From Fidelibacterota bacterium (GTDB lineage: Bacteria; Fidelibacterota; Marinisomatia; SCGC-AAA003-L08; D37C17): a DNA stretch of 64,000 bases. How positions within the stretch are numbered: position 1 is the stretch's first letter; each line of letters opens with the position of its first letter. This document shows, one piece after another, positions 1-4,500 of this stretch. The position numbers were made by a program, and so were the translations under genes. The stretch lies in the NCBI GenBank assembly GCA_002717625.1, contig PBEF01000002.1, positions 3,338 to 67,337 of the forward strand, given 5' to 3'. The notes under the pieces were generated by a model that saw only the letters and a list, made by a program, of their open reading frames with translations, did no database searches and had not been told where the DNA came from.

Positions 1-1
1 A

Positions 2-463
2 GCACCATATGATATAGGAGATCAATTGAGCTGTGAAGATATTCAGACTGAGTTTGACATTTGCTTCCCTTCTGATTGTGGTTCTATTAAATTAGCTGAT
101 TTTGAAGATAAGATTATATTTATTGTTTATGAGGAAGATTGGTGAGGCTTTTGTTATGATGATATTCCTCAGTTAGAGGAAGATATTATTCTGAATTATT
201 TAGATAATCCGAATATTGCAATTATTAATTTTTTATCTGATGGTCCTGGTGGGCGTAGTTGTGATATGTGGGGTAATAATGGAGATGATAGAGTTCCTAT
301 CATTGTAAATGATTATAATGAAAATCATACATTTGGTAATTGGTTTAATATTACTTATTCTTCTCCTTGGTATTTAATATTAGATGAAAACTTTATTTAT
401 CAGTTTAGAACACAAAGTGAACCAGAAGCAAAAGCTTTTTTAGAGGAAATGTTAACAGATTAA
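2..463 (+). CDS. Secreted thioredoxin-fold selenoprotein (5' partial, in-frame TGA = Sec)
   Basis: The reading frame is open from the window edge to TAA at 461-463 except for one TGA at 143-145. That TGA sits in the context D-W-TGA-G-F-C-Y, which is the thioredoxin WCGPC site with its first Cys replaced. Read through, the fragment is 153 residues: Sec48, Cys51, a further Cys87 in an S-C-D-x-W motif, and a cis-Pro-like SSPW site (Pro122) before a beta strand. It parallels the gene at 1817-3352 (PYDIGD against AYNVGE near the mature N-terminus, then WUGxCY, SCxxW, cis-Pro). Only the signal peptide and start therefore seem to be missing. There is no dockerin or sorting domain, so it is a stand-alone redox domain, probably extracytoplasmic. 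The reaction is unknown; a thiol-disulfide or peroxide reaction is inferred from the fold. A conventional annotation would wrongly start at 266. Confidence 0.82.
143..145 (+). other. Selenocysteine codon (recoded TGA) in UxxC motif
   Basis: This in-frame TGA replaces the first active-site Cys of a thioredoxin-like W-x-G-F-C motif. The paralogue at 2045-2047 has TGA at the homologous codon. Normal TGA stops elsewhere in the window argue against a genome-wide reassignment. Confidence 0.8.
162..186 (+). promoter_or_regulatory. Candidate bacterial SECIS hairpin
   Basis: TTCCTC (165-170) pairs perfectly with GAGGAA (176-181) around the loop AGTTA (171-175), which holds the GU expected in a bacterial SECIS apical loop. 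ATA (162-164) can extend the stem to 184-186 past a two-base bulge. The loop starts 25 bases after the TGA, inside the usual bacterial range and almost the same as in the second gene. It would bind SelB to direct Sec-tRNA insertion. Confidence 0.75.
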
Positions 464-493
464 TTTTAGAAGTTATTTAAACTAGGAGATAAA

Positions 494-1537
494 ATGAAAA
501 AAATATTTATGTTATTAGTAACACAGTCATTTGTATTATATGCTACTGAATGGCAAATTAATGCTGGTAATTTTTATTATAGCCCTTCTTTATTAGAAAT
601 AAATGCAGGAGATACTGTGGAGTGGATTAATGATGGAGGGTTCCATGATGTTAATGGAAATTATAGTACTTTTACTAATGAACTTTATGATAATCCTGAA
701 AATTTCTATGTAGGACCTCCAACTAATTCAAGTGTTATAGGTAGCTATACATTTAATGTGCCTGGTACTTATAATTATGATTGTTCTGTTGGTAGTCATG
801 CAGCAAATGGAATGGTTGGAGTGATTATTGTAATAGATTCTTCATCTGATATATCAGGTTGTATGGATCCAAATGCTATTACGTGTGATGATGAGATTGA
901 TCCATTATATTTTCCTGAGTGCAATACCTGTTCTGATGATAATCCATGTGAAAATTATTATAACTCTGATGCTACTATAGATAATGGTTTATGTATGTAT
1001 AATGATGTTCCTGATTCTGATGAAGTTACTATTACTTTAGAAAATGATGGTTTGATGATTGATTGGAGTGATTTTAGTCCTCCCGTTTCTGTTGATCAAT
1101 ATGTTTTGATGAGATGTGCTGATATTGATGGAGACAATGATAACGATGGAGAGTTTGAGTATGAAATGTGTGTAATGATTATTCCTCCTATGCCTTTATA
1201 TGAAGAAATGGATTTTATAGATGATTTTTCAGATACCGATGAATATGGTTTAGATGATATAGCAGCCATTAAGTATACATTGTCAATTGGATATCCAAAT
1301 AATAATTATTGGGGATCAGCTTTTGGTAATTATTATTATGAGCCAACTGAAGATGATGTCTTATTAGGTGATTTGAATTTCGATGGAATTATAAATGTTA
1401 TTGATGTTGTATCGATGGTTAATGGTATTCTTAGTGGTAATTTTGATTCTGAACAATTAGCTGTGGCTGATATGAATTCAGATGGAATTGTTAATGTTAT
1501 TGATATAGTCTCTTTAGTTAATTTTATTCTAGGATAG
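494..1537 (+). CDS. Secreted cupredoxin (type 1 copper) domain protein with C-terminal dockerin
   Basis: This 347-residue protein has a signal peptide (about 1-17) and a plastocyanin/azurin-like cupredoxin domain (about 18-113). The type 1 copper ligands are visible as His51 (FHDVNG), Cys97, His102 and Met107 (YDCSVGSH...GM). A short GCMDPNA Cys-rich repeat follows (about 121-168), then a beta-rich stretch of unknown type, then a dockerin-like pair of calcium loops (about 293-347; GDLNFDG and ADMNSDG, each followed by I-x-N-V-I-D). Cupredoxins transfer single electrons; the partner is unknown. The gene has a good Shine-Dalgarno (AGGAG) and starts 30 bases after the upstream selenoprotein. The context suggests an extracellular redox function together with the two Trx-like selenoproteins. 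Confidence 0.85.
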   Translation: MKKIFMLLVTQSFVLYATEWQINAGNFYYSPSLLEINAGDTVEWINDGGFHDVNGNYSTFTNELYDNPENFYVGPPTNSSVIGSYTFNVPGTYNYDCSVGSHAANGMVGVIIVIDSSSDISGCMDPNAITCDDEIDPLYFPECNTCSDDNPCENYYNSDATIDNGLCMYNDVPDSDEVTITLENDGLMIDWSDFSPPVSVDQYVLMRCADIDGDNDNDGEFEYEMCVMIIPPMPLYEEMDFIDDFSDTDEYGLDDIAAIKYTLSIGYPNNNYWGSAFGNYYYEPTEDDVLLGDLNFDGIINVIDVVSMVNGILSGNFDSEQLAVADMNSDGIVNVIDIVSLVNFILG

Positions 1538-1609
1538 AATTTAATAGTTATTTGTAGAGAGATATATTATTTTATGGTATATAATTTTTTAATAAAGGGG
1601 TAAGTAAAA

Positions 1610-1795
1610 ATGAAATGTGATATGGATATGAGTTGTAAAGATAAGATAGATTTAGTTTTAAAATTAGTTTTTGTAGGTGTTTTTACATGGGGAGTAATGA
1701 GTCTTGTGTGTTGTATGAAGTCTTGTGATACATCATCATCTTGTTGTAAAAATCAAACAACTGAAGCAGTAAAACCTTGCAGTTCAAAAAAATAA
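1610..1795 (+). CDS. Small cysteine-rich single-span membrane protein
   Basis: The product has 61 residues and I do not recognise the family. A hydrophobic segment (about 13-34) is flanked by a short charged N-terminus with Cys3 and Cys9 and by a hydrophilic tail with six more cysteines (34, 35, 39, 45, 46, 57) and a Lys-rich end. The start has a strong Shine-Dalgarno (AAAGGGG). The gene lies between the cupredoxin gene and the second selenoprotein gene, 21 bases upstream of the latter and apparently co-transcribed. Eight cysteines in 61 residues suggest metal binding or disulfide exchange, but that is inference only. Confidence 0.6.
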   Translation: MKCDMDMSCKDKIDLVLKLVFVGVFTWGVMSLVCCMKSCDTSSSCCKNQTTEAVKPCSSKK

Positions 1796-1816
1796 TTAAT
1801 TACAGGGGTAGTTATT

Positions 1817-3352
1817 ATGAAAAAAATATTATTATCATGTGTTGCGCTTAATTTTGTTTTTTGTGCATATAATGTTGGTGAAACAATTAGTTTGAGTGAT
1901 CAGCAATTAACACGAGAAGTTTGTTATAGTTCTGACTTAAATAGTGATTATGAAGTAGGTGATAGTTTTTCATTATACGATTTAAATGGTGCGTACAATG
2001 GAGGAACTTATCATGTTATGTTCTTTGATATGAGTGCTACTTGGTGAGGCCCTTGTTATACAAGCCAAACCGGTCCGGTTGGTTCTATTGACTACTATTT
2101 AGCTACATATCTAGATGATTATGAAACTTATGAAGACAACATAGCAACTTTTGCAGCATTAGCTGATCTTAATCAGCCTTATTCTTGTGAGGCGTGGGCA
2201 AGTCTTGCCCCTAATGGAGCAGGTGATATAGTCTCAGATGTGGGGTATGGAATGTTTAACTTATATAATAGCCAAAATGGCTTTCCTAGTTTTGCATTTG
2301 TTGATCATAATATGACTGTTTATCAAAAGAGTAATAGTGCTGGTACATATTCAACAAAACTTAGAATTCAAGAAATGCTTGATGCTTGTATCGCAGATGG
2401 ATTATGTGGATCTGTAGATATAGATAATGATGGTATTATAGATGGAGATAACTGCCCTAATGATTATAACCCTAATCAAGAAGATGGTGATAATGATGGA
2501 ATTGGTGATGCCTGTGATGATTGTCTTAATAATGTAGGTGATGTTAATGATGATATGACTATAGATATTTTAGATATCGTAACTACTGTTAATATTGTTT
2601 TAACTGGTGGTGTTAATTCTACAGATTTCACGGAGTGTCAAAAGACTGATGCAGATATGACAGGTGATGGAACTATTAATATTCTTGATGTTATTCAAAT
2701 CATTAATGCAGTTCTTGGTAATAATTTGAGTTTATCATTTGATTCATCTGTAAAATCAGAGTATGTTGAAATTGAAGCTACAAAGAAAAATGGAAATTTA
2801 TATTTAACTGTAGATTCAGAATATGCAGCAGGACTTCAAATAAATTTCAATGATTTTGTTTCTGATGTAAACTTAGTAGATAATAAAGGTTATTTAACTT
2901 TAGATAAAATTGATGGAAAGATTGATAGATGTGTTATTTATTCTCTTGAAAATAGAGAATTTGGTAATGATACTTTTACCATAGAAGTTGAAGGTGCAGC
3001 TAAATTAGATTGTAATAAAATTACGGCTGTAGCTGGAGATAGATTTGGAACAAATATGCAAGTTCGATTTACGGCTCCTGAAGTGCGTAATTTTGCAATT
3101 AATAGTTTGTATCCTAATCCATTTAATCCTATTACATCAATTGATTATAGTGTTGAAAAAGCAGGTGAATTACGTTTGTCTGTTTATAATATTTTAGGAC
3201 AAGAAGTTGCTGTTCTTTACAATGGATATCAAACTGAAGGAGAATCTTTTAGTGTACAATGGGATGCAGCATCATTTTCTTCTGGTGTTTATTTTGTGAA
3301 TATGGCAATGAATGGCCAGATTGAAACAATGAAAGCTGTAGTGGTTAAATAA
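1817..3352 (+). CDS. Secreted thioredoxin-like selenoprotein with TSP3 repeats, dockerin and T9SS-type sorting domain
   Basis: One reading frame runs from ATG 1817 (Shine-Dalgarno CAGGGG) to TAA 3350-3352, interrupted only by TGA at 2045-2047. Read as Sec, the product has 511 residues. It has a signal peptide (about 1-16), then a Trx-like domain with W76-U77-G78-P79-C80, Cys124 in S-C-E-A-W, and a cis-Pro-like FPSF (Pro157). Thrombospondin type 3-like D-rich calcium repeats follow (about 200-236; DNDG...DNCP), then a dockerin-like pair (about 240-301), a beta-rich spacer, and a C-terminal sorting domain starting at YPNPFNP (about 432-438). The layout predicts export and surface anchoring or release by a type IX-like route. 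A conventional caller would split it into a 76-residue and a 370-residue ORF; both parts are in the same frame. The substrate is unknown. Confidence 0.87.
2045..2047 (+). other. Selenocysteine codon (recoded TGA) in WUGPC motif
   Basis: TGA replaces the first Cys of the canonical thioredoxin WCGPC motif. The frame stays open for 434 further codons that encode recognisable domains, so this is neither a true stop nor a decayed gene. Confidence 0.86.
2065..2082 (+). promoter_or_regulatory. Candidate bacterial SECIS hairpin
   Basis: CCAA (2065-2068) pairs with TTGG (2079-2082). After a bulged A at 2069, CCG (2070-2072) pairs with CGG (2076-2078), leaving a GTC apical loop (2073-2075). GU in the loop, the bulge in the stem, and a distance of about 25 bases from the TGA fit a bacterial SECIS. 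They match the hairpin of the first selenoprotein gene in position although the sequences differ. Confidence 0.77.
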
Positions 3353-3376
3353 AAGTTTTTATTAATTAATTAGATT

Positions 3377-3412
3377 AAAAAGGGAGTATATATTTTATAT
3401 GCTCCCTTTTTT
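3377..3412 (+). terminator. Rho-independent terminator after the selenoprotein gene
   Basis: AAAAAGGGAG (3377-3386) pairs with CTCCCTTTTT (3402-3411). An inner ATAT/ATAT extension closes a short T-rich loop, and a T run follows. It ends the redox block and lies only six bases before the next start codon. Confidence 0.85.
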
Positions 3413-3417
3413 ATTAT

Positions 3418-4500
3418 ATGAAAAATAATTTCCAATATATAGTTGTAGGTGCAGGAATTGTTGGATTAGCTATATCTGAAATATTGAGTAGAAAGTCTAA
3501 TGGTAATATTTTAGTTATAGATAAAGAAAAAAAATTTGGTTTGCATACATCCAGTAGAAATAGTGAGGTTGTCCATTCAGGATTTTATTATCCCAAAGAT
3601 TCTTTAAAATCAAAACTCTGTGTAAAAGGTAATAAAATGATGTATGAATTTTGTGATAAGTATAATATTCCTTATAAAAAATGTGGTAAGTTGATAGTTG
3701 CAAATACTAAAGAAGAAATTTCTGTTTTAGATGATATTTTGTTATCATCATATAAAAATGGTGTTGAGGCTCAAATTATTTCAAAAAAAGATTCATTGAA
3801 AATTGAGCCAAATGTACGTTGCAAGAAGTCCTTATGGGTTCCATCAACAGGTATAGTTGATTCGCATTTAGTGATGTCTAAATTAGAGAATTTATCCTTA
3901 TCAAGAGATGTTTCCATATTATATAATTTAGAGTTAGATAGTATTCAAAAAATAGATAGTGGCTATAGCATTGATTTTGTTAATGATGATTCTATTATAA
4001 CAACAGATTGTATTATTAATTGTGCTGGTTTATGGGCTCATGAGATAGCAAATCAATTGCTTGAAAATAAATACGAAGTAGAGTATTATAAAGGAGATTA
4101 CTTTAAAACATCAGATATAAAAAACATCAACTCTCTTATTTATCCTGTCCCAAATAATTTATCATTAGGTATTCATGTTGTTATCAACTTAAATGGTGAA
4201 GTTTTATTTGGTCCTAATGTTTATAAGATTGATAGTGTGAGTTATCAGAATGATAGTAGATACAAAGAGACTTTTTTAAAAGAAGCAAATAAGCTTTTAG
4301 TAAATAATATAAAGGATATATATATTGATTATTCTGGAATACGTCCTAAAATAAAATATGATGGTAGACTGAATGATTTTATTATTAAAGAAGAAAAAAC
4401 ATTGAAGAATTTTTATAACCTAATAGGTATAGACTCCCCAGGATTAACATCTTCATTGGCAATTGCCGAATATGTATATGGCTTAATTCAGATTGATTGA
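3418..4500 (+). CDS. lhgO: FAD-dependent oxidoreductase, L-2-hydroxyglutarate oxidase family
   Basis: This 360-residue protein of the DAO superfamily begins with a Rossmann FAD motif (VVGAGIVGLA, about 9-18). The family signature TSSRNSEVVHSGFYY follows (about 45-59). In the family, these enzymes oxidise L-2-hydroxyglutarate to 2-oxoglutarate and pass electrons to the quinone pool; here the substrate is inferred from similarity. The protein is somewhat shorter than the E. coli enzyme. The start lies directly behind a strong terminator and has no Shine-Dalgarno, yet the FAD motif needs this start. The gene is convergent with the hydrolase gene at 4488-5309 and overlaps its end by 13 bases. Confidence 0.8.
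   Translation: MKNNFQYIVVGAGIVGLAISEILSRKSNGNILVIDKEKKFGLHTSSRNSEVVHSGFYYPKDSLKSKLCVKGNKMMYEFCDKYNIPYKKCGKLIVANTKEEISVLDDILLSSYKNGVEAQIISKKDSLKIEPNVRCKKSLWVPSTGIVDSHLVMSKLENLSLSRDVSILYNLELDSIQKIDSGYSIDFVNDDSIITTDCIINCAGLWAHEIANQLLENKYEVEYYKGDYFKTSDIKNINSLIYPVPNNLSLGIHVVINLNGEVLFGPNVYKIDSVSYQNDSRYKETFLKEANKLLVNNIKDIYIDYSGIRPKIKYDGRLNDFIIKEEKTLKNFYNLIGIDSPGLTSSLAIAEYVYGLIQID

Follow-up and report, generated by a model that had tools for sequence, protein, structure and literature searches.

Two predicted secreted thioredoxin-fold selenoproteins of a marine Fidelibacterota genome and their relation to GOS_C

A review of 2026 (PMC13188914) distinguishes 119 prokaryotic selenoprotein families and subfamilies, among which GOS_C, represented by the model NF045500, comes closest to the proteins described here. 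It was found in 2008 by Zhang and Gladyshev (PMC2398784), who reported a thioredoxin-like fold, and is likewise of marine origin. Table 1 of the review also contains broader related categories, the thiol-disulfide isomerase-like proteins with a UxxC motif, in which U denotes selenocysteine (Sec), and the redoxins (cd02966, PF08534, PF00578). The subject of the present work is a stretch of 64,000 nucleotides from a Fidelibacterota bacterium (GenBank assembly GCA_002717625.1, contig PBEF01000002.1, positions 3,338 to 67,337), referred to as the window, in which two genes, seleno1 and seleno2, carry an in-frame TGA at a thioredoxin-type active site. Both genes very probably encode selenoproteins, as had been proposed in an earlier reading of the bare sequence (the original prediction); the selenocysteine machinery of the genome, the codons of homologues, selection and hairpins strongly support this. 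The actual insertion of Sec, the location of the proteins and their chemistry we infer.

The window is G000:C2:3338-67337 of an assembly of 1.49 Mb in 23 contigs, and coordinates refer to the window unless they are prefixed. The relatives named below are metagenome assemblies of Candidatus Neomarinimicrobiota (SAR406). The two genes and their elements, including hairpins resembling the bacterial selenocysteine insertion sequence (SECIS), are located as follows.

2 to 463, plus strand: seleno1, 3' part of the gene of a predicted Sec-containing thioredoxin-fold lipoprotein
143 to 145, plus strand: UGA of seleno1, predicted to be read as Sec in W-U-G-F-C; Cys or Sec is aligned here in all homologues
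158 to 190, plus strand: hairpin of seleno1 resembling a bacterial SECIS; its apical loop, AGUUA, begins 25 nucleotides past the UGA
1817 to 3352, plus strand: seleno2, gene of a predicted Sec-containing thioredoxin-fold protein of 511 amino acids with a signal peptide, a thrombospondin-3/dockerin region and a sorting tail of type A for the type IX secretion system (T9SS)
2045 to 2047, plus strand: UGA of seleno2, predicted to be read as Sec in W-U-G-P-C; Cys or Sec is aligned here in all homologues
2055 to 2092, plus strand: hairpin of seleno2 resembling a bacterial SECIS; its apical loop, GUC, begins 25 nucleotides past the UGA

Both TGA codons are in frame and occupy the first position of a W-U-G-x-C thioredoxin-type site, WUGFCY in seleno1 and WUGPCY in seleno2, and the frames stay open for a further 105 and 434 codons, respectively. 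The cysteine of an S-C-x-x-W motif follows 39 residues past U in seleno1 and 47 in seleno2, the tryptophan of this motif is invariant across the family, and the cis-proline position (P122 in the alignment anchored on seleno1) is nearly so. The original prediction was thus right about the common functional position of the two TGA codons, about the long domain-bearing frames behind them, which contain conserved domains under purifying selection, and about the S-C-x-x-W motif and the cis-Pro-like site. It had further spoken of two secreted selenoproteins in one locus, which was confirmed with the amendment that the window begins inside the first gene: the full seleno1 gene is G000:C2:2901-3800, encodes 299 amino acids when TGA is read as Sec, and has at its start (G000:C2:2901) the predicted lipoprotein-type signal MRIYIFLVCFLIISC. 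A gene caller using translation table 11 stops both open reading frames at the TGA, and truncation by standard callers had indeed been foreseen. As had also been stated, TGA is a normal stop elsewhere; it ends 8 of the 44 long open reading frames of the window, and there is therefore no global reassignment of this codon. Among the TGA-interrupted frames of the window only seleno1 and seleno2 combine a coding-like composition on both sides of the TGA with a UxxC motif; the other coding-like frames of this type lack the motif.

All four genes of the selenocysteine machinery, which the original prediction had proposed to look for, are present in the genome. The tRNA-Sec scores 65.8 bits, above the cut-off, and is called tRNA-SeC with anticodon tca by ARAGORN; selA (506.6 bits) is directly adjoined by selB (330.2 bits), and selD (376.3 bits) is of the Sec type with an in-frame TGA of its own at PGAGUACK.

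Homologues were collected with a profile made of four domains from the same genome, which was run over 171 genomes of the class. Many of the matches carry exactly one TGA, and among the matches listed those bearing TGA come from at least 55 of the 171 genomes. In 93 distinct domains from the loci that were read, nearly all of this class, the codon at the site is TGA in 80, TGT in 9 and TGC in 4, with no other codon occurring, and a further in-frame TGA was found within these domains in a single case, a UxxU form. A Cys paralogue with the motif ATWCGPC (42% identical) and further TGA genes exist in the genome itself. In a tree of 75 domains the Sec and Cys forms are mixed, with five changes on the best tree, at least three of which are forced by well supported branches. 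Compared with the sister genome G143, the ratio of nonsynonymous to synonymous substitution rates is 0.24 upstream and 0.28 downstream of the TGA for seleno2, the corresponding values for seleno1 being 0.31 and 0.39; judged by these ratios, purifying selection extends past the TGA in both genes. Homologue codons, tree and substitution ratios together therefore answer the objections of sequencing error, pseudogene and chance. The original prediction had named three findings that would speak against it, namely missing sel genes, no Cys or Sec homologues aligned at the TGA, and raw reads with another codon there. The sel genes are present, 13 Cys codons align at the site, and a base error is excluded in practice because the TGA recurs in independently assembled relatives.

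As a control, 24 streamlined genomes in which no tRNA-Sec exceeds the cut-off gave 48 matches with no in-frame TGA; this counts little because the matches are weak generic thioredoxins. Phage and plasmid collections yielded nothing on the redox domain. One contig pattern scan had Cys in its pattern, and its seeds therefore lie on Cys-type sites only. The genes often stand in arrays of two to four homologues, most of which bear TGA, and some arrays include a Cys member (L050, L051, L084-L086, L093, L095-L102, L107). Further TGA genes were observed in the genome of the window. At about G000:C4 24000-25700 (L031) two of them are adjacent, one with SQGUAGUT, which has two in-frame TGA, and the other, homologous to the window genes, with NATWUPAC. 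G000:C11:41773-41979 (L042) belongs to a long exported protein in which FAPNUPVC lies within an AhpC/TlpA-like domain and which also has a dockerin region; a further gene encodes a thioredoxin-like lipoprotein with ATWUGPCKM at G000:C18:16489 (L166:1290), where no convincing hairpin follows the TGA.

The evidence on the hairpins is comparative. In a folding test a stretch of 48 nucleotides was compared with shuffles which keep protein and codons. At 0 to +6 nucleotides after the TGA, 64 TGA genes yielded a mean folding z of about -1.0 against a flanking background of about -0.1, whereas z was about 0 at the same place in 11 Cys genes. G is found in the first two loop bases of the best hairpin in 87% of the TGA genes (63 with a hairpin) as compared to 27% of the Cys genes, and at position +22 in 48% as compared to none. 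In 28 genes chosen only by GT at +22 the complementarity of the five flanking pairs amounts to 96%, compared with 81% after shuffling of columns, and 0 of 2000 shuffles reach 96%; compensatory stems surround the GU loop, such as CATCG-GTT-CGATG, CATTG-GTT-CAATG and GATAA-GTT-TTATC. As related sequences can inflate such shuffle tests, the contrast to the Cys genes is the stronger point. RNA structure after the TGA is under selection in the TGA genes. Both window genes belong to those with a SECIS-like hairpin having G in the loop at 16-37 nucleotides from the UGA, and a terminator-type scan also detects both stems (165-181 and 2068-2080). Of the original claim of GU-loop hairpins about 25 bases after both TGA codons, the place and the selection on structure held.

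AlphaFold2 models of both redox domains (mean confidence scores, pLDDT, of 92.7 and 91.2) show a thioredoxin fold in which the first active-site helix starts with W-C/U-x-x-C and a cis-Pro-like site is present. Their best fold matches in the PDB are DsbF, ResA, DsbE, Etrx and TlpA, in agreement with a profile search against PDB sequences. In seleno2 the residues W76, U77, C80, C36, C124 and W127 are invariant or nearly invariant, and a structural disulfide between C36 and C124 is possible. The C-terminal sorting domain of seleno2 is above cut-off (PF18962 with 41.4 bits, TIGR04183 with 39.6 bits), and the genome contains a gene for the SprA translocon (515.1 bits summed over the frame); together with the dockerin region this makes export to the cell surface plausible. 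In the mechanism we propose, SelB and Sec-tRNA-Sec would decode the UGA, aided by the hairpin just downstream, and in the resulting thioredoxin active site of UxxC type Sec would be the residue that attacks. Seleno1 would leave the cytoplasm as a lipoprotein and seleno2 would reach the surface via the T9SS, both being thiol-disulfide oxidoreductases resembling ResA, TlpA and DsbE. The target of the selenolate would be a disulfide (or a peroxide), with resolution by the second Cys through a selenenylsulfide. Established knowledge on the thioredoxin superfamily makes disulfide exchange with Sec as the nucleophile the likeliest chemistry, and the window domains probably act in this way.

The two genes are part of a small group which contains the following further elements.

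494 to 1537, plus strand: cupredoxin (plastocyanin/azurin fold) with a dockerin-like C-terminus; Pfam PF00127 with 34.2 bits, PF00404 with 38.8 bits
1610 to 1795, plus strand: Cys-rich protein of 61 amino acids, a conserved member of the module, with a single hydrophobic stretch predicted to lie in the membrane
3377 to 3411, plus strand: intrinsic terminator-like hairpin at the end of the gene group

The cupredoxin protein, which is kept in the module, shows in its sequence the copper ligand pattern C-x4-H-x4-M; the Cys-rich protein has no match in Pfam or NCBIfam. The order seleno1, cupredoxin/dockerin protein, small Cys-rich protein, seleno2 is shared with the sister genome G143. It also occurs in G137, G138 and G140, which belong to another genus and have one more selenoprotein ahead of it. 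In G139 a cytochrome c domain (PSCyt1, 29.3 bits, CGGCH) stands in place of the cupredoxin on the same C-terminal dockerin-bearing part (L097:3204-4220). This exchange of cupredoxin for cytochrome c suggests that the selenoproteins serve the middle protein, which would be an electron carrier or cofactor protein. ResA and CcmG are established reductants of apocytochrome c before heme is attached, and TlpA has an established role in assembling the copper site CuA; either reading of the partnership is therefore reasonable. The selenoproteins might keep thiols of the protein between them, cupredoxin or cytochrome c, in the reduced state needed for cofactor loading, or exchange electrons with it, a tentative proposal that we hold to be possible rather than probable. 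Even more speculative, and rather unlikely as it stands, would be a selenium redox relay outside the cytoplasm, in which Sec-thioredoxins of envelope and surface cooperate with a one-electron carrier that can be either cupredoxin or cytochrome c; to our knowledge no such partnership exists among described selenoproteins.

Behind the group lies a gene for an FAD-dependent oxidoreductase (DAO, PF01266, 183 bits) at 3418-4500, which is also found in G139 (L097 from 5670). Directly upstream of seleno1 there is a 99.8% identical copy of cupredoxin, small protein and seleno2 (G000:C2:1-2893, the stretch L009:1-2893, compared with 463-3352 of the window). The contig of G143 begins with a segment (L093:1-157) 98% identical to the end of the seleno2 gene of G143 itself, the start of a similar duplication, so that tandem duplication followed by homogenisation is the likely origin of the copy. 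The possibility of an artefact of assembly was weighed, and an N at C2:3336 leaves some doubt.

If the UGA were a true stop, the genes would be pseudogenes or encode truncated proteins with a decayed frame downstream. The behaviour of the gene caller and the ordinary use of TGA as a stop elsewhere agree with this, but the downstream frames are under purifying selection with conserved domains, and the TGA is kept in independent genomes, never replaced by TAA, TAG or any non-Cys codon; the probability of this explanation is next to nil. It is also very improbable that a suppressor or reassigned tRNA reads the UGA as Cys or Trp instead of Sec, for although 13 homologues have Cys at the site, the Sec machinery is complete, UGA still ends ordinary genes, and the selection on hairpins is confined to TGA genes. 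Several observations weigh against the selenoprotein reading and its extension to the neighbours. Taken singly the window hairpins are unremarkable (z of -1.46 and +0.14 for 48 nucleotides with dinucleotide shuffles), which is a correction to the original hairpin claim, and these single-sequence scores were kept out of the evidence. Many genes of the family are without a textbook hairpin or have it at another offset, from 17 to 29 nucleotides, and the basis of the link to cupredoxin or cytochrome is gene neighbourhood, seen in six genomes from two genera.

Two further alternatives accept selenocysteine and concern the kind of protein. Peroxidase or peroxiredoxin-like scavengers would fit the weak matches to AhpC/TSA in 24 and to Redoxin in 18 of 64 members, and the peroxiredoxins and GPx among the fold matches of seleno1. 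The WUxxC motif with its resolving Cys is, however, that of Trx, ResA and TlpA, and the best fold and profile matches are ResA, DsbE and Trx, so we consider scavenging unlikely. Membership in the GOS_C or Omp28-related selenoprotein family (NF045500) could be argued from a tail similarity (protein P0002, 57.6 bits over model positions 273-376), from the UxxC thioredoxin fold on both sides, and from the occurrence of GOS_C in the same class, where NF045500 exceeds its cut-off in 23 of the 171 genomes. This appears quite improbable, as P0002 stays below the cut-off of 200 bits, seleno1 has no match, none of 64 redox domains matches NF045500 at an E-value of 0.01, and among the genomes listed for the family of the window, its own included, none gives a match at 1e-20.

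Beyond what the original prediction contained, the family of seleno1 and seleno2 proved to be large, partly arranged in arrays and related to GOS_C by tail and fold, with a cupredoxin in its module. With it, a large share of the selenium chemistry in these bacteria would take place outside the cytoplasm, and its many Sec/Cys paralogue pairs, some within single genomes, offer a test of when Sec repays its cost. The family had been suspected to be hidden in databases as fragments; judged from family models rather than from database entries, this agrees with the finding that no specific NCBIfam model fits. In the release searched no NCBIfam model covers the redox domain, which gives only weak Trx, ResA and AhpC matches, and automatic annotation can therefore be expected to split the genes and to undercount the use of selenium in SAR406. 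In a survey of 2016 (PMC5029168, Table 1) three SAR406 single-cell genomes are entered with selD as an orphan and no other selenium trait.

With GOS_C the window proteins share the UxxC motif, the thioredoxin-like fold, the marine origin, the thrombospondin-3/dockerin tail and the occurrence in the same Neomarinimicrobiota class, but similarity to NF045500 is confined to the tail, the redox domain being unmatched, and the window proteins carry either a T9SS tail or a lipoprotein anchor and are part of a cupredoxin module. As this model matches neither the redox domains nor the listed genomes of the family of the window, the window proteins appear to form a new subfamily of secreted thioredoxin-fold selenoproteins of a known kind and not to belong to GOS_C. 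The TUGYCR motif thioredoxin-fold (seleno)protein model NF053656 concerns not the window genes but the TGA gene with SQGUAGUT on contig C4, which scores 67 bits, under the cut-off of 100 bits. ResA, TlpA, CcmG-DsbE and Etrx resemble the window proteins in fold (TM-score normalised by target about 0.7-0.8), in their WCxxC site and in being extracytoplasmic; matches to curated ResA-type models are weak and miss the cut-off (e.g., 170 bits for ResA PRK03147), reaching at most 57.9 bits in a relative, with none for P0002. In contrast to these proteins, those of the window would attack with Sec, and they have extra Cys residues (C36 and C124 in seleno2) and dockerin and T9SS fusions. The UxxC selenoproteins of the thiol-disulfide isomerase-like and redoxin categories likewise have UxxC in a thioredoxin-like fold and Cys homologues; from these broad categories the proposed subfamily is set apart by its own conserved Cys, the S-C-x-x-W motif and a secreted multi-domain architecture.

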